Assembly: GCA_021647945.1 (NCBI GenBank)
Contig: JAKITT010000006.1
Span: 1-64,000, forward strand
DNA from: Candidatus Polarisedimenticolaceae bacterium
Lineage (GTDB): Bacteria > Pseudomonadota > Gammaproteobacteria > Chromatiales > Chromatiaceae
Direction: 5' to 3'
DNA: 64,000 nt
Shown here: one piece after another, positions 380-53,639 of the stretch
Layout of the letters: each line of letters opens with the position of its first letter
Position numbering within the stretch: position 1 is the first letter of the stretch
Made by a program: the position numbers and the translations under genes
Notes under the pieces: generated by a model
Told to the model about the DNA's origin: nothing
Databases searched by the model: none
The model's input: the letters and a program-made list of their open reading frames with translations, nothing else

Positions 380-568
380 CGGGACAGCAGTGATTTAACT
401 TATGCTTGGTATTGGCTGGTACGGGTTGACCCAGAGAGTGGCTTAATGGAAGAGATAGCAAAAACAAACTCAGCATCAACCCCCATTGTTTTTGGCAATG
501 ACCTCTATATGCCAGGAAAAGATTATTTCCGTAAATTCACAGACTACCCTGTCACTTATCAAAACTAA
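380..568 (+). pseudogene. 3' remnant of an unidentified gene beside the IS4 element
   Basis: A plus-strand frame runs without a stop from 380 to a TAA at 566-568 (62 codons) and reads like protein: DSSDLTYAWYWLVRVDPESG, then LMEEIAKTNSASTPIVFGND, then LYMPGKDYFRKFTDYPVTYQN. There is no credible start codon; an in-frame stop at 377-379 sits just before it, close to the presumed end of the IS4 element. The simplest reading is the tail of a gene whose front was removed when the insertion sequence landed. I do not recognise the family. The TAA stop overlaps the first bases of the repeat that follows. Confidence 0.35.
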
Positions 569-729
569 GGAGCCTCTGATTAAGTCTGATTGAATTTAGA
601 GTGAGATGAAACTGTTTCGATTTGTTTCGAAGTGAGCGGTAATAGTTATTCTATTGCGGCGATCTTCGGAGCGAATCGGGGCAGTTTCAGTCAGTCTAAA
701 AAAATCATAACTTATTCAGAGTCTCCCTA
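567..729. mobile_element. MITE-like element, full-length copy A
   Basis: A 163-bp segment with inverted ends: the left end reads AAGGAGCCTCTGATTAAGTC and the right end, reverse-complemented, TAGGGAGACTCTGAATAAGT. The interior carries a second inverted pair, CGATTTGTTTCGAAGTGAGC against GCGATCTTCGGAGCGAATCG. It is flanked by TA on both sides. Closely similar full copies are at 13651-13831 (same orientation) and 59228-59391 (opposite orientation). It has no coding capacity, so any movement would depend on a transposase elsewhere. Confidence 0.7.
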
Positions 730-735
730 ACTTAA

Positions 736-1209
736 TCAGGGATTATATCGCCGTTCAAACCCCGACTCACTGAACCCGTTCATCTTACTGTTTTTACTGA
801 TGACAATGAGCGGGTAGCCTGATCCGCCCAGCTTTTTAAACTCACGCATTCTGTGTGGGAGTTTCTCAACATTGTATTCTACAAATGGAATGCCATTTTT
901 ATTGAAGTAGTTTCTAGCTTTTTTGTAGTATCCACACCAGTCTGTTCCATACATGGTGACTTTTTTCTTTTTAACACTTTTTTTAGCTGTTTCAATAGCG
1001 GAAGCAACGCTCTTATTTGTTGCTGATGGGGTTGTTAAAGATGGCTGAGTTACATTGACATGCACTATCTCAGAGTCACCACTGCTGGGCGGGCGCTCTC
1101 CAAAATGCACTCTCCCTTCGCTATCTACCCACTTATATATCTCAGCATGAGCAGAAAATGCGAACAGGAGCATGGCTACTGCTAGGAGAGTCGATAGTTG
1201 GTTACTCAT
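736..1209 (-). CDS. Exported DUF4124-glutaredoxin protein with a CGYY active site
   Basis: With the start at ATG 1209 the protein has 157 residues: a signal peptide (about 1-22, ending FSAHA), a DUF4124 segment (EIYKWVDSEGRVHFGERPP), a Ser/Thr/Lys-rich linker, and a glutaredoxin fold from about 83 with KVTMYGTDWCGYY and the cis-proline region GGSGYPLIV. A frame extension to 1269 exists, but 1209 is preferred because the signal peptide begins there and GGGG lies just upstream. Family members normally carry CGYC; here Cys92 is kept and the second cysteine is Tyr95, which would make it monothiol. Likely a periplasmic thiol-handling protein. Neighbouring SCO1 suggests copper or redox maintenance, by inference only. 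Confidence 0.75.
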   Translation of the reverse strand: MSNQLSTLLAVAMLLFAFSAHAEIYKWVDSEGRVHFGERPPSSGDSEIVHVNVTQPSLTTPSATNKSVASAIETAKKSVKKKKVTMYGTDWCGYYKKARNYFNKNGIPFVEYNVEKLPHRMREFKKLGGSGYPLIVISKNSKMNGFSESGFERRYNP

Positions 1210-1309
1210 GCGCCCCAATATCCCACAGAGCGTCTTGGGAGTCAGCTCCTCCAGGATCAATGGGGTCAATTGATCGTTTTATTTGGCCCATACTTCACAC
1301 ATGACACAA

Positions 1310-1924
1310 CTACTCTGGCATCACATGCAGCATGGCATCATAAACTACCGATGCGGGGACGCCATGGGGGAAGATAAAACGCAATTCACCATCATCGGTT
1401 ATTAAATAGAGTGCACCCGAGTGGTTGATTGCATAACCAAATGAGGAGTCTTCCATTTCGACCTTGTAGTACTGAACGCCATAGAGTTCAGCGGCGCTGT
1501 CAATCTGTTCTTTGCTTCCCGTCAAACCGATTGAATTAGCATGGAAATAGCTCACATATTCGACCAATAATTCTGGGGTATCCCGGTCGGGATCGACACT
1601 AACAAAAACTATCTTAACCCTCTCCGCTTGTTGGGGTGTTAGCTCATTCAGTGCTTGGGTCATGGTCGCCATGGAGGTGGGGCAGATGTCGGGACACTTG
1701 GTGTAACCAAAATAGAGCAGCACCAGCTTGCCACGATAATCTTTGAGGGAGACAGGGCCATCTGCCGACTGTAGGAGAAAGTCTCCGCCTGTTGGCGGCA
1801 CGTCAAAACCACGTGCGGCGATCTGTTCTGGTGTGGCCTCTTGTTGTGCCATCACTAACAGTGGCATCGAGAGAAGTGTGATAAATACTGTTTTATAGAT
1901 TAGTCGTATCATTTGATTATCCAT
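1310..1924 (-). CDS. SCO1/SenC/PrrC family protein
   Basis: 204 residues with an N-terminal hydrophobic segment (about 6-26, ending VMA) that is a signal peptide or anchor, followed by a thioredoxin-like fold. The copper/redox motif is present: C77 and C81 in YTKCPDICPTS, and His168 in AINHSG. SCO1 proteins deliver copper to the CuA site of cytochrome c oxidase subunit II or act as thiol-disulfide reductases in the periplasm. Start at ATG 1924; Met5 is an alternative that would shorten the n-region. It is transcribed toward the glutaredoxin gene (100-bp gap). No cytochrome oxidase gene is in the window, so the client is not shown. Confidence 0.9.
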   Translation of the reverse strand: MDNQMIRLIYKTVFITLLSMPLLVMAQQEATPEQIAARGFDVPPTGGDFLLQSADGPVSLKDYRGKLVLLYFGYTKCPDICPTSMATMTQALNELTPQQAERVKIVFVSVDPDRDTPELLVEYVSYFHANSIGLTGSKEQIDSAAELYGVQYYKVEMEDSSFGYAINHSGALYLITDDGELRFIFPHGVPASVVYDAMLHVMPE

Positions 1925-1952
1925 ACTATTTAAGAGTGCTGAGTAATTCTCA

Positions 1953-2107
1953 CTTTGTCAGATTCAAACCAATCGACCAAAAAACATGGATTCCATCACA
2001 ACATGGTATCTGTAGGTTCGCTTTTGAGCGTACATGAAACCAAACCATGCACTTGAAAGTGCACCTACAAACCGTCCCATCTGGATGGCTGGGAAAATCT
2101 GACAAAG
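1953..2107. repeat. Small inverted-repeat element with GTAGG...CCTAC core
   Basis: The 12-base arms CTTTGTCAGATT (1953-1964) and AATCTGACAAAG (2096-2107) are perfect inverted repeats enclosing about 130 bp. Inside is a core that opens GTAGGTTCGC and closes GTGCACCTAC, a pattern also seen inside the element at 63426-63586. It fills most of the gap between the SCO1 gene and the pseudouridine synthase gene. No coding potential. Confidence 0.55.
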
Positions 2108-2128
2108 TAGAAGTAATGTACCTCTTCT

Positions 2129-2956
2129 CTATAGAGGCTCTACGCAGTAATGTTTAAGCTCACCACTTAGCGGGCAGCAGAAGGCGAGTGAATAGGCGGT
2201 CAACTGTAGATCTTCACTCGCTGCATTCGCTTGCCCATGAAGTCGGTCTCCCACCACGGGAAAACCGATTCCAGCTAAATGTCGGCGGATCTGATGTTTG
2301 CGTCCGGTGTCAATCTTCACCTCTAGCAGTGATCGGTTCTGTGACTGATCAACCTCAATCAGGCTCACCCAGCTAGATGCGGGGCGGTGATCAATCTCTG
2401 CGGAGATATGTAGCGCTTCGTCACGCGCGGCAAAGATCCCCTCAACCACTACGCGATAACATTTTTTGATCTGTCGTTTTTGGAATAGTTCAGCCAGTGC
2501 TGAAGCTGTTTTTTTCTGGTGGGCGATAATGATGAGACCAGAGGCGGCACGATCCAGCCGATGCACAATGAAGGCGGGCCGTTGTGGCGTCAGGTTCAGT
2601 TCAACCCAACGGTTGATGGTGCAGTGATCACCCCACTTGCTGCCCTGGCAGAGCATGCCGTAGGGTTTAAACCAGATGGAGTAGGCACCTTCATCGGCAA
2701 TCAGACGCGCCGCTGCCACCTCACTGGCCAACACCCGCTCGTCATAGTAGAGATGCAGTTCATCCCCTTGGTTTAGCTTTTTATCGGCCCGACGGAGACG
2801 TTGTGTCCCCTGCTTATTGGTCAGCCAGACGGCCCCTTTTTGCATCACCTGCTTGATGGATTGATGGCTGAGTCCAGTGGCATCAGCCAACAACCTCACG
2901 GCCTTTGTCTCATCGTTAAGAACCGAGCAGTGGTGCTCAAACCGATTAGCTGACAT
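2129..2956 (-). CDS. RluA-family RNA pseudouridine synthase
   Basis: 275 residues. The catalytic motif HRLDRAASGL has the conserved Asp at 135, followed by the typical HQKKTASALAELFQKRQIKK and the KCYRVVVEG strand; near the C-terminus TGRKHQIRRHLAGIGFPVVG is the standard RluA-family signature. The first 75 residues contain an S4-like stretch (VMQKGAVWLTNKQG, then DKKLNQGDELHLYYDERVL). The enzyme isomerises uridine to pseudouridine in rRNA or tRNA; the exact target cannot be told from sequence alone. ATG at 2956 starts 12 bp after the stop of the upstream YecA-like gene, so the two may be co-transcribed. Confidence 0.88.
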   Translation of the reverse strand: MSANRFEHHCSVLNDETKAVRLLADATGLSHQSIKQVMQKGAVWLTNKQGTQRLRRADKKLNQGDELHLYYDERVLASEVAAARLIADEGAYSIWFKPYGMLCQGSKWGDHCTINRWVELNLTPQRPAFIVHRLDRAASGLIIIAHQKKTASALAELFQKRQIKKCYRVVVEGIFAARDEALHISAEIDHRPASSWVSLIEVDQSQNRSLLEVKIDTGRKHQIRRHLAGIGFPVVGDRLHGQANAASEDLQLTAYSLAFCCPLSGELKHYCVEPL

Positions 2957-2968
2957 GGCGATGCACTA

Positions 2969-4327
2969 TTAGTGCAGACAGCACTTCTTAAATTTTTTCC
3001 CACTGCCACATGGGCAGGGGTCATTTCGACCCACCTTGGGTTCGGTTAAAACCTGTACAGCGGCATCACCCATTTGTCGTCTAAAGTGGTGATAGAGCTC
3101 TAATGCGCTCCTCTCCACCTCATACTGCATCGATTCAACCTCATCTATATCCATCGCTTCAATCTGCTCCATCCCCTGTTCAGTGGCGAACAGCCTGATC
3201 ACCTCTAATGCCCGCTCCACAACCAGCGCATTGGCGGCTGAGAGTGATGGCCACATAGCCATGCCACGCAGAAACCCCTCGCACCACTCATCGACAATAT
3301 CATAGGTTTTACCTTCAACCTCTTTCTCAAAAAATAGCGCTTGAAAGCTATCATCATCCAACGCCTGAGCCACTTGGTTGTAGAAGACCATCACCGCCGA
3401 TATGAATTTATTGGCATGATCAACATCTGGCCACTCTGGGGTGTGCTCTTTGCCGCCCCAAATGGCAGCCATCCACTCAGAGGGCATGATCATCTCTGGC
3501 GCGGCGAGTATTGCGGCAAAAAAACCATCCAGCTCTGAGATGTTGAGAATCGATTCGTCACAGCCATATTGCAGCAGATACTCATCCAGCTCTTCAAAGA
3601 GCGTGACCGACTCAGGATCAGGTGAGATCAAGGGGGCCTTCTCTTTCGCCTGATGAGAGGTGGCATAGTCTGGTTTTGGCGTGCTGCGTTGATCTCTCAA
3701 TCCTAGTGAAATTTCAACCTCTTCCAGGTCACCGGCACAGCTAATATCAACCATGCCACCGCTATAGATATCCCGAATCACCTCTATCGACTCACTCGCT
3801 TGTAGGTCGATAAGGCAGCAGACAATCAAGCCATTCATTGTCGTCAGGCTCTTATCCTTCGCCCGTAGGTAGGCAGTGAGCGCCTCAATAACCGCCTCTC
3901 GGCATTCAGGGTGCCGCTCTGCAATCTCCTTCAAACCATCGGCCGCTATGACACGGGCAAACTCTTTGTGTCGGATCTCGTTCATATAGATGGTTAACGG
4001 TTCAACTGCGGGCGCACCCAACATGCCCACCACCACCGGCAGATCCTGAATGGCCCAGTCATCTTCAACCAGCAGATCAAAGAGTGCCAACAGCGGCTCT
4101 ATACTCGATGCGCTGCCCAGCTGAGCCAACGTCCGCCAGGCGTGCAGCGGCACCCAAACCTCATCGCTCTCAACATCGGCATCATGCAGTGACTCATTGC
4201 CCACCAACAGCAGCAGACTAAAGACATCTTGATCATTAAAACCAAACTGCAGGTAGTCCATCCATTTTCCACCATGCTTCACTTCACCCAGTTCAAACAG
4301 GGCACTCAATTTACTTTTACTGCGCAT
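2969..4327 (-). CDS. UPF0149/YecA-family protein with N-terminal helical repeats and C-terminal SEC-C zinc motif
   Basis: 452 residues in three parts. Residues 1 to about 220 are helical-repeat-like ([36 protein letters not shown]), resembling DUF1186/HEAT regions. About 240-410 match the YecA/YgfB family ([35 protein letters not shown]). The last 22 residues form a SEC-C metal-binding motif, [19 protein letters not shown], as at the end of SecA and YecA. SEC-C motifs bind zinc or iron and often contact ribosomes or SecB. The function of this combination is not established. Start ATG 4327; stop 12 bp before the pseudouridine synthase. Confidence 0.8.
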
Positions 4328-5811: not shown

Positions 5812-6780
5812 ATGCTCAACTGGTTCCACAACAAAATCCAGCAGCCGACGGCTGGCGTGGTTGCCTCCTCATCGAGTACACAAGCCACCACTGAGGAGCT
5901 GATTCAGCTCAGGCTGCATGTAAAGGGACTGAAGCTGCGTGGGCGACAGATGGCAACCAGCGTCATCTCCGGCACCCACCACTCGCGTTTTCGTGGACGC
6001 GGCATGGACTATCTGGAGTCACGCTGCTATCAGCCGGGTGATGATATCCGTAATATGGATTGGCGCGTCACCGCACGTACCGGCACACCACACACCAAGA
6101 TCTACCACGAAGAGCGGGAACGCCCCGTCGTCGTCGTGGTCGATCTGGGACCAACCATGTTCTTCGGCACCCGCAACTGCCTCAAGTCGGTGCAGGCATG
6201 TCGTGCCGCCGCAATGCTTGGTTGGGCCACCATCACCCAGGGCGACCGCATCGGCGCGCTTATATTCAATGGCAAGCACCAAGAGCTACAACCCAGCGGG
6301 GGCCAGCGTGGCGTGTTGCGTCTAATCCGTCATCTCAATCAGAGCAGTGACCCCAGCAAAGGGCTGGCCAATAGCGCAGATAACAACGGCCTCAATCATG
6401 CGCTAAAACGCCTACACCGCGTCGCCCGCCCAGGCTCCCTCATCTTTATCATCAGTGACTTCTACAACCTCAATGATGATACTGACCAACAGCTGATGAG
6501 ACTGCGGCAACATAATGACCTCATCGCCCTCCAGATCACCGACCCACTGGAACTCGCACCACCACCCGCAGGCAGTTACGCCATTACCGATGGCCACAAC
6601 AGCGGTTGGCTTGATAGCCGACAGACGAGCACGCAAGCATGGTTGCCCCACTACCACCAACGTATCAACGAGGTGATAGAGCGCCGTGCCATGCCACTGC
6701 TACAGCTCTCGACCACGGATGAGATCTCCAGTAAGTTACGGCAATTTTTCAACTCATCTAAGCAAGGCAAGAGACGCTGA
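5812..6780 (+). CDS. DUF58-domain protein
   Basis: 322 residues from ATG 5812. The DUF58 signature is present: HHSRFRGRGMDYLESRCYQP, then GDDIRNMDWRVTARTG and KIYHEERERPVVVVVDLGPTM. The region after it is a von Willebrand factor A-like fold, but the metal site reads DLGPT instead of DxSxS, so metal binding may be altered. DUF58 proteins are the usual direct partners of MoxR ATPases. The stop overlaps the next ATG by one base (TGATG). An in-frame start at 5761 would add residues coded by the repeat. Confidence 0.88.
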   Translation: MLNWFHNKIQQPTAGVVASSSSTQATTEELIQLRLHVKGLKLRGRQMATSVISGTHHSRFRGRGMDYLESRCYQPGDDIRNMDWRVTARTGTPHTKIYHEERERPVVVVVDLGPTMFFGTRNCLKSVQACRAAAMLGWATITQGDRIGALIFNGKHQELQPSGGQRGVLRLIRHLNQSSDPSKGLANSADNNGLNHALKRLHRVARPGSLIFIISDFYNLNDDTDQQLMRLRQHNDLIALQITDPLELAPPPAGSYAITDGHNSGWLDSRQTSTQAWLPHYHQRINEVIERRAMPLLQLSTTDEISSKLRQFFNSSKQGKRR

Positions 6781-51253: not shown

Positions 51254-52528
51254 TCAATTCATCACTCCCCCTTCACATTGGATGTGGAGGCTGATCTCCT
51301 CTCCTTCAGGCGGTGTTTCAGCAAAAAGCCAAATTTGGCGCAGTACACCTCGTGATCTCATCAAATCCGCGAGTAGAGTGCTCGCATAATGGCCATTCAA
51401 AAAGATGAACTGTCGTTTTATCGCAGCTTCAGAGAGTATCTCTTGTGTAGTACCCAGTCTGCTTTCAAGGTTATCTATCCCCTGCTCCACCTGTTCAATG
51501 TCACGTTCTGCAACGGCTAGCGCCGCACGGCTCTGATCAAGAGAGAGTTCGACCCAAGGCATCATCTGCTCAATATGGTGTTGAACCTCATCAGGCAGCG
51601 CCGTAGCGTCCAACAACTTTTCGCGTAACACTTGCCGCGTGGCAGCATGTTCTGCCGGTGCATTCTTGGCCAACTGGTCGAGACCTGCCAGCGCTTCAGC
51701 TATTTTTTCAGGCACCTGCAACAGCCCTCTAATACGCTTCTTTAGTATTAGACAGAGTCCCCAGGTAAAAGCTAACAACAGAGTGAGGCCAAGAATACTG
51801 TAGAGCAGCGGTGAGAGTTCGGCGGGATTCCAGCTTGGATATTGAGCCATCAACTGTGATGTCAGCACTCCAGCAAGTGTGCTCTCAGGCACTATTGAGA
51901 TAGAGAGTGCTGCCAGCAAAAGATAGAGGGTATAGAGAAACATCACCCCCTGAAAGAAGTTACTCTGTTTCAACCCGCGTTTAGCCTTTCTGATAGTGCG
52001 CCCACTTCCCTGAAAGAGCGCCATACGATAATTGAGAGAGGAGAGAAGCGCTTGTTTCTCTTGTAACTGCTGTCCAGCCTGATCACGGTACTCCATCAGC
52101 TTACTAAGTGGCGGCCTATCACTCTCTGCGACTACCGCGAGTAAGAGGTGCTCTGTAAACAGTTCATAACTGAAGCCGATCAGCTTATCAATAACGCCCT
52201 GATCAACCTCCAATAGCTCCATCGATTCAGCCACTATTCGCAAGCTAACACACTGAAGTCCATGACGATCTATAGAGCGAACAACCTCATACTCTTCGCC
52301 GCCATCAAGGGAGAAGTGAAGTGTCACTGAACCGCCATCTATCCCCTGATAACTCAATTCCGATACGCAAGTGTGACCAAATAGCGCAAAACAGACCGAC
52401 TCAATCACACACTCTCGCGCTGATTGCTCACTTCCGCTAACAGCGATAATCCCATTTTCTGGCAGTTCAGTCAGTCTGATCTTGCGAGTTTGGAAAAGAT
52501 TATCTGCAATGATACTGCGTAAAATCAC
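51254..52528 (-). CDS. Membrane protein with a degenerate Rad50/SbcC-like ATPase N-terminus
   Basis: 424 residues. Residues 1-130 align with the N-terminal ATPase half of SbcC/Rad50: an IRL strand, a strand then P-loop position (GIIAVSGSEQSARECVIESV, followed by CFALFG), and FSLDGGEEYEVVRSIDRHG. The P-loop lacks the conserved GxGKS (here GSEQSARE), and the Q-loop region (GFSYELFTEHLLLAVVAESD) lacks the glutamine. In place of the long coiled coil and C-terminal half come two membrane segments (191-213, 241-262) and a short coiled coil (about 340-375). No catalytic activity is expected. I know no named family with this build. It converges with the gsp operon. Confidence 0.7.
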   Translation of the reverse strand: MILRSIIADNLFQTRKIRLTELPENGIIAVSGSEQSARECVIESVCFALFGHTCVSELSYQGIDGGSVTLHFSLDGGEEYEVVRSIDRHGLQCVSLRIVAESMELLEVDQGVIDKLIGFSYELFTEHLLLAVVAESDRPPLSKLMEYRDQAGQQLQEKQALLSSLNYRMALFQGSGRTIRKAKRGLKQSNFFQGVMFLYTLYLLLAALSISIVPESTLAGVLTSQLMAQYPSWNPAELSPLLYSILGLTLLLAFTWGLCLILKKRIRGLLQVPEKIAEALAGLDQLAKNAPAEHAATRQVLREKLLDATALPDEVQHHIEQMMPWVELSLDQSRAALAVAERDIEQVEQGIDNLESRLGTTQEILSEAAIKRQFIFLNGHYASTLLADLMRSRGVLRQIWLFAETPPEGEEISLHIQCEGGVMN

Positions 52529-52632
52529 CTACCACTTCCTCCCTCGCCATCAAACAGGCTTGAATCTACATTTTTCTTAGCAACGTCACCGTGCGAGAGT
52601 ATATGCGAGGAGCTGATTCAGGTCACACCATT

Positions 52633-52741: not shown

Positions 52742-53639
52742 ATGAACCTCAAGACTCACTTCATCTTAATCAGCGCCCTTCTACTCACCGCATGTGGTGG
52801 TAGTAGTAGTAACACCGGCGGTAGTGGCACGTTGAGCCTCAACATTACCGATGCCCCTGTCGACAATGCCAGCAAGGTTGTGGTCGCCTTCTCTAGTGTC
52901 ACCATAAAACCTGCCAATGGCCCCGCTTAATGAGATCGATTTTATCGATGTCAATGGTGACCCAGAGGTTAAAACTATCGACCTATTGGAACTTCAGGGA
53001 GCCAACAGCTTACCCCTGCTAAATGGCCAGACTTTAGATGCCGGACACTACAATTGGCTTCGTCTGAACATTATTGCCAGCGAAAACACGCTTGATTCCT
53101 ACATCACGGTCAACGGTTTGCAGTATTCACTCTACGTACCGAGTGGCAACGAAACAGGACTCAAGCTCAACCGGAGTTTTGACATCAGCACTGGAGGGGC
53201 CGCCACATTTACCATCAATTTTGACCTGCGCAAGTCTGTCATTGCACCCAACAATGGTGGCTCAGCCTATAAACTCAAACCTACCCTACGGATTGTTGAA
53301 AACAGCAATGTTGGGCATATCTCTGGCTTGGTTGGAGGTGTATCGAGGGGAGATATCAACTGCAACGACATGGCGTATGCGGTTTACGCCTTCAGTGGCG
53401 CTGATGTAGTCGCTGATGATATTGATCTGAATGAGCCAAACCCAATCGCCACGGCACTCGTCTCCACTGTCCCTGACTTTGACTACACACTCGGTTTTCT
53501 GGATCAAGGCGTCTACACCCTCGCCTTTACCTGCCAAGCGGCAGATGATGATGTCGATACCGATGATGCCATCATTTTTATTGGCAGCAGCAATGTCACC
53601 GTTAACGCCGGAGCGATAACAGTGCATAACTTTGATTGA
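52742..53639 (+). pseudogene. DUF4382-type lipoprotein gene with a single-base frameshift
   Basis: The first frame (52742-52930) encodes a lipoprotein signal (LLLTACGGSSS) and the start of a DUF4382 domain (GTLSLNITDAPVDNASKVVV). It stops after KPANGPA. The other frame continues from the same point with NEIDFIDVNGDPEVKTIDLL and reaches 53639 (LEL, LPLLNGQTLDAGHYNWLRL). Removing one C from the CCCC run at 52921-52924 joins them as NGP-LNEIDF in register, so the defect is one extra base. It is either a real lesion, a phase-variable run or a sequencing error. The joined product would be about 298 residues: an exported lipoprotein of unknown function with a terminator after it. Confidence 0.75.

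Follow-up and report, generated by a model that had tools for sequence, protein, structure and literature searches.

The window, the whole 64,000-nucleotide stretch of the source genome (G000) that was analysed, encodes on its minus strand an ATPase-dead, membrane-anchored Rad50-like protein of 424 amino acids (51254..52528, GTG start, stop codon included). All 424 codons are open, with no internal stop. Residues 1-133 (52130..52528) are the N-terminal half of an ABC/Rad50-like head, modelled by AF2 as strands and helices. A dead Walker A (residues 32-39; 52412..52435) reads GSEQSARE where intact relatives have GxNESGKS, and a dead Q-loop (residues 128-135; 52124..52147) reads LLLAVVAE where relatives have FYLAQRE. 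A shortened coil and juxtamembrane segment follows (residues 141-190; 51959..52108) and leads into two membrane helices. Helix 1 (about residues 193-213; 51890..51952) is indicated by hydropathy, an AF2 helix and a match to the TM segment of the intact family, and helix 2 (about residues 239-262; 51743..51814) by hydropathy, AF2 and the family profile. Hydropathy places them at about residues 191-215 and 238-264. The two are separated by a loop of 25 residues that is predicted to be periplasmic, and positive residues flank the hairpin, with KAKRGLK preceding helix 1 and KKRIR following helix 2. Next come a C-terminal coil (residues 263-371; 51416..51742) and what remains of the C-terminal half of the head (residues 357-419; 51272..51460), with AF2 strands at 375-378, 398-403 and 412-418. 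Upstream of the gene, on the same strand, lies a private promoter block composed of GTGACC, 17 nt and TATACT (52598..52627).

An Mre11/SbcD nuclease gene is absent among the window neighbours. A link to type II secretion was considered and rejected; the genes are only convergent neighbours in G000 and lie on separate contigs in G001, the sole other sequenced genome and species of the genus. The neighbouring SPOR gene has no clear orthologue in G001. On the plus strand (52742-53639), a DUF4382 lipoprotein gene is apparently split across two frames, with the signal peptide and domain start seemingly in one frame and the remainder (Pfam positions 45-136) in a second frame running from 52917. The split appears to be a frameshift or an assembly error.

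The likeness of the window protein to Rad50 is weak when judged by its own matches and becomes decisive through the family to which it belongs. The resemblance covers residues 24-101 (NCBIfam Rad50_Halo, E 0.0017; PDB 3qf7, E 0.021), and the NCBIfam Rad50 models match the protein at E values of about 0.001-0.02. A Pfam scan of the window protein returned no head domain, and AAA_27 gave no Pfam match to it at E<=1. A weak Pfam match of its coil to MscS_porin was rejected as coiled-coil noise. Genome contigs searched with the window protein as sole query gave zero matches.

Intact relatives contain a complete split Rad50/SbcC-type ABC head arranged around a coil, two membrane helices and a second coil. 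They are ~600-800 amino acids long, and homologues from the taxonomic family and class of G000 measure about 600-680 amino acids. Within the taxonomic family, 116 of the 210 genomes searched gave matches. In a sample of the class, the family occurs in 35/369 genomes and 24/272 genera, spanning about 20 families, and the longest member is about 810 amino acids. A scan of named genomes, from which the best 80 of 278 were kept, includes Sedimenticola, Candidatus Thiodiazotropha, and tubeworm and lucinid symbionts; the 654-residue protein of Sedimenticola sp. BM503 (L052) is an example of an intact member. Two homologue hits, in G020 and G029, proved to be chemotaxis receptors and were discarded.

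All 71 named sequences with a locatable start contain Walker A (GxxxxGKS/T), the Q-loop YLAQR, the signature S[SA]GTQR and Walker B DEPFAFFD. This set is biased, because the retrieval patterns covered two of the four motifs. The complete relatives recovered by the dead protein itself likewise have intact motifs, except for one broken gene (G097). None of the 71 intact relatives contains a CxxC zinc hook; a membrane hairpin is present instead. Intact relatives match Pfam AAA_23 (E 3e-12), and a Foldseek search with the AF2 model of an intact relative gave Rad50 (1.6e-15). Neither Pfam nor NCBIfam yielded a model of the family's own, and the intact membrane Rad50-like family seems to be undescribed.

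Some members of the family depart from this arrangement. In G219 and G064 (L152 and L157), extra sequence lies between the halves, with open frames of 818 and 1095 amino acids. In G097 (L146, about 536-3645, minus strand), an intact-type gene is interrupted by roughly 1.2 kb of inserted sequence close to residue 70, its signature motif contains an in-frame stop and LDEPFA is missing; the small partner ORF described below remains open beside it. The G097 copy is a genuine pseudogene of the family, and is unlike the window gene in appearance.

The intact gene is coupled to a second, very small gene. An ORF of ~65 amino acids directly precedes the ATPase gene at 71/71 loci, and at 67/71 the TGA of the partner overlaps the ATG of the ATPase as ATGA, as in L052, where the ORF end overlaps position 6001. 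The partner has the consensus ..F..YC.AE.ERRRNSGE.FDE..Y..AME..LRKL..LE.EG. Across 55 genomes, a partner profile detected it in 18/18 with an intact ATPase, in 0/35 without, and in 0/2 with the dead form. The partner had no match in Pfam, PADLOC or PDB, and it is apparently undescribed. No partner ORF lies upstream of the window gene, and the profile detected none in the whole of G000 or of G001. Association with the wider neighbourhood is less tight than the partner link. Among the best 80 of 278 loci, 30 have an RNB-type RNase gene upstream and 34 have HrpB downstream, so neither can be considered an obligate partner. In the same 80 loci, a crude regular expression found an Mre11-type gene pattern near only one. 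No match was found for carriage of the intact gene on plasmids.

Alignment to the family profile reveals how the window protein relates to its intact relatives. Three collinear segments align, with an overall E value of 3.7e-45. Residues 2-131 match profile positions 2-141 (71 bits), residues 140-357, which include the helices and coil, match positions 205-428 (58.6 bits), and residues 357-419 match positions 548-617 (18.2 bits; the best of 2,000 shuffles scored 4.1). The third segment starts directly past the deleted signature motif. The ~120 profile positions missing between the last two segments (429-547), deleted near residue 357, comprise the distal coil, the first strands of the C-half and the signature motif. 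The first coil is also shorter than that of the family. In the strand of Walker B, the window protein has QFIFLN-GHYA compared to QFIFLDEPFA in relatives. All four motifs, Walker A, Q-loop, signature motif and Walker B, are therefore gone from the window protein.

On this alignment, the window protein is a collinear family member shortened by internal deletion. It is not a fusion or chimera, because the TM segment, the coil and the C-terminal remnant all match the same family. The sequence-only reading had correctly recognized that the N-terminal ~130 residues are Rad50-like, that Walker A and the Q-loop are lost and that two membrane helices are present. Its proposal that the coiled coil and C-terminal ATPase half had been replaced does not hold; the helices and coil belong to the family, and the C-half is partly deleted rather than replaced, since ~63 residues of the C-terminal head are still present. 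The structure prediction that it recommended also points to Rad50. The AF2 model of the window protein (pLDDT 84, pTM 0.55) contains the N-half sheet, three C-terminal strands and long helices, and Foldseek placed Rad50 first (E 3e-10). The input alignment included intact relatives, which biases the model toward the intact fold. The position of the dead pair in a gene tree was set aside, as a long-branch placement (branch 1.57) is untrustworthy.

The second species of the genus provides an independent view of the gene. The G001 homologue was compared over 349 codons and is cut by the end of its contig, such that the comparison stops short of the C-terminal motifs. Its frame is open and it is 59% identical to the window protein. 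Its P-loop reads GESQAARE; G37A, K38R and S39E are common to both species, as is the shortening of the first coil. These losses were inherited, as the same ones are present in G001. An independent copy that shares both the P-loop lesions and the promoter makes it highly improbable that the short gene is a false product of a frameshift or chimera in the assembly of one metagenome bin, even though G000 is fragmented (163 contigs) and the adjacent DUF4382 gene seems frame-split. The sequence-only reading had also regarded homologues with an intact P-loop as a sign of a recent lesion. Such homologues are indeed abundant, yet the dead P-loop also occurs in the genus-mate and the gene is under purifying selection, so the lesion is not recent.

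Several measures reveal this selection. Between the window gene and the G001 copy, dN is 0.30 and dS is 1.41, the latter near saturation. The pN/pS ratio is 0.39 (bootstrap 0.31-0.46), and identity at the three codon positions is 0.73/0.77/0.49. Loss of catalytic motifs is thus combined with purifying selection, the pattern that defines a maintained pseudoenzyme. Identity between the species is 72-76% for two nearby genes and 59% for the dead gene, which evolves faster than these two genes yet not neutrally. A decaying, functionless pseudogene with a frame left open by chance would account for this faster evolution and for the loss of the catalytic motifs, of ~120 residues and of the partner gene, and the family does decay elsewhere, as in G097. 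It is nonetheless unlikely. The dead P-loop is common to two species and later changes were non-random, with the second codon position 77% identical compared to 49% at the third. The promoter is conserved and unique; the 30-nt block containing GTGACC-17-TATACT occurs once per genome, just upstream of the dead gene in both, whereas the intergenic DNA around it and the upstream neighbours differ between the species.

The distribution of the constraint is as informative as its presence. Identity between the two species is 0.51 in the head, 0.86 in the juxtamembrane segment (residues 170-190, the highest of the four), 0.71 in the TM segment and 0.63 in the post-TM segment. TM identity minus head identity is +0.20 in the dead pair; across 2,485 intact pairs, which are not mutually independent, this difference averages -0.27 and never exceeds +0.03. 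Constraint is inverted in the dead gene, concentrated on the membrane and juxtamembrane part. This pattern is the opposite of that of intact genes and argues further against a pseudogene.

The same pattern bears on two roles that the head itself might have retained. ABC heads work as dimers, and the dead head could pair with an intact Rad50-type head, either SbcC or an unassembled intact homologue, and poison or tether it. The head fold is partly kept, and G000 contains one more Rad50-type match, in a 1,232-aa frame that is probably an ordinary SbcC and could supply such a target. A regulator of this kind, which the sequence-only reading had suggested in the form of a head mimic, is rather improbable, because no intact family member was found in either genome (94.6% and 91% complete) and conservation is lowest in the head, contrary to the expectation for a conserved dimer interface. 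Alternatively, the head may bind nucleotide or phosphate in a non-canonical manner, with Arg38-Glu39, in place of the Lys-Ser of relatives, fixing the P-loop in an ATP-mimicking state. The pattern G..Q.ARE is common to both species despite a head that is only 51% identical. Loss of the Walker B acids, the Q-loop and the signature motif as well makes this very unlikely.

The dead gene has also left the usual location of the family. The ancestral HDOD-YgfZ-RNB block is present in both genomes of the genus, and past the RNB gene there is no TM-Rad50, partner or HrpB in either. What follows the RNB gene there (L169, L170) is a chemotaxis-receptor-like gene in one species and apparent respiratory oxidoreductase genes in the other. 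The dead gene is a single gene at a different site with its own promoter. In G001 the upstream genes differ from those of the window and the downstream side is off the contig. Co-occurrence with a secretion operon, another suggestion made from the sequence, amounts to convergent adjacency in one genome and is not upheld.

Taken together, the window protein is probably a pseudo-ATPase, a genus-specific derivative of a membrane-spanning Rad50/SbcC-like ABC family that is kept as an ATP-independent membrane scaffold. This explanation draws on two species only. In the relatives, as their sequences show, the head halves flank the coil, membrane hairpin and coil, with the gene coupled to that of the ~65-aa partner. 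Within the genus, the gene is missing from its usual RNB-adjacent site, is partnerless and is under its own promoter. The four motor motifs are lost, and purifying selection is focused on the membrane and juxtamembrane part. ATP cycling would have ceased, and what is left of the head may fold into a passive module in the cytoplasm, tethered to the inner membrane by the hairpin. Both ends are likely cytoplasmic, given the positive residues KAKRGLK and KKRIR. The protein could serve constitutively as a scaffold or receptor, with the hairpin and the juxtamembrane coil as its useful surface, a function suggested by the pattern of constraint. Retention of the gene in both sequenced species suggests conversion to an ATP-free membrane fixture.

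A broader proposal has about an even chance of being correct. The family would be an undescribed gammaproteobacterial membrane-tethered Rad50-like machine, pairing a TM ABC ATPase with an obligate partner of ~65 amino acids and lacking a conserved Mre11-type nuclease, that turned into an ATP-free scaffold in one genus by losing its motor and partner while the hairpin was kept and tightened. The window protein would then be the first Rad50/SMC-class pseudo-ATPase with selection shifted from the head to the membrane. The intact family may outweigh the dead gene in importance, as an inner-membrane Rad50-type ATPase with one tiny partner that is widespread and apparently unnamed. It raises the question of the role of an SMC-type clamp at the membrane when its usual nuclease is lacking. 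As a natural experiment, the dead version sets the membrane part apart from the motor and draws attention to the juxtamembrane segment.

The literature on YhaN, membrane-anchored Rad50/SMC-like proteins and pseudo-ABC ATPases revealed neither such a family nor a Rad50/SMC-type pseudo-ATPase, which is weak evidence of novelty because most subscription journals lay outside the scope of the search. Maintained pseudoenzymes and LmuB-type Rad50 relatives with an altered Walker B are already known. What is apparently new is a Rad50-like ATPase built into the membrane together with its coupled small partner, plus its ATP-dead descendant. The description of the window protein as a membrane-anchored, ATPase-dead SbcC/Rad50-type head that matches no described family, made from the sequence, is borne out.

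Comparison with known systems places the family near, and apart from, several Rad50 relatives. Both the intact relatives and the window protein share the split ABC head fold of SbcC/Rad50 (AAA_23 PF13476, TIGR00618), and Rad50 is the top PDB match for both models. Unlike SbcC/Rad50, the family lacks the zinc hook, which is replaced by a membrane hairpin, lacks a conserved Mre11-type partner and has short coils; in the window protein the ATP site is also dead. YhaN (COG4717), a Rad50-like protein with predicted membrane helices, serves as a lead only; three intact relatives gave no match to its Pfam profile, AAA_27, at E<=0.01. LmuB of Lamassu, mad3 and PbeC resemble the intact relatives in size (~650 aa) and type of head, and the intact relative L052 matches mad3 (E 1.3e-19) and LmuB (E 2.5e-17). 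LmuB often has a Walker B Glu-to-Gln change (PMC10586767). In contrast to Lamassu, the intact family has membrane helices, a small partner without a PADLOC match and no plasmid match. Clustering of neighbours in 80 neighbourhoods (best 80 of 278) revealed no recurrent LmuA-like effector gene. Pseudoenzymes in general keep the fold and lose catalytic motifs, with scaffolding as a common fate (PMC10211241), and the window protein is like them in that its motifs are lost and its gene is maintained. The closest comparison is with the intact membrane family itself. In the window protein, N-head, coil, two membrane helices, coil and C-head follow one another as they do in the relatives, but the protein is without the four motifs, the partner and ~120 residues of the family, and its gene is located elsewhere.
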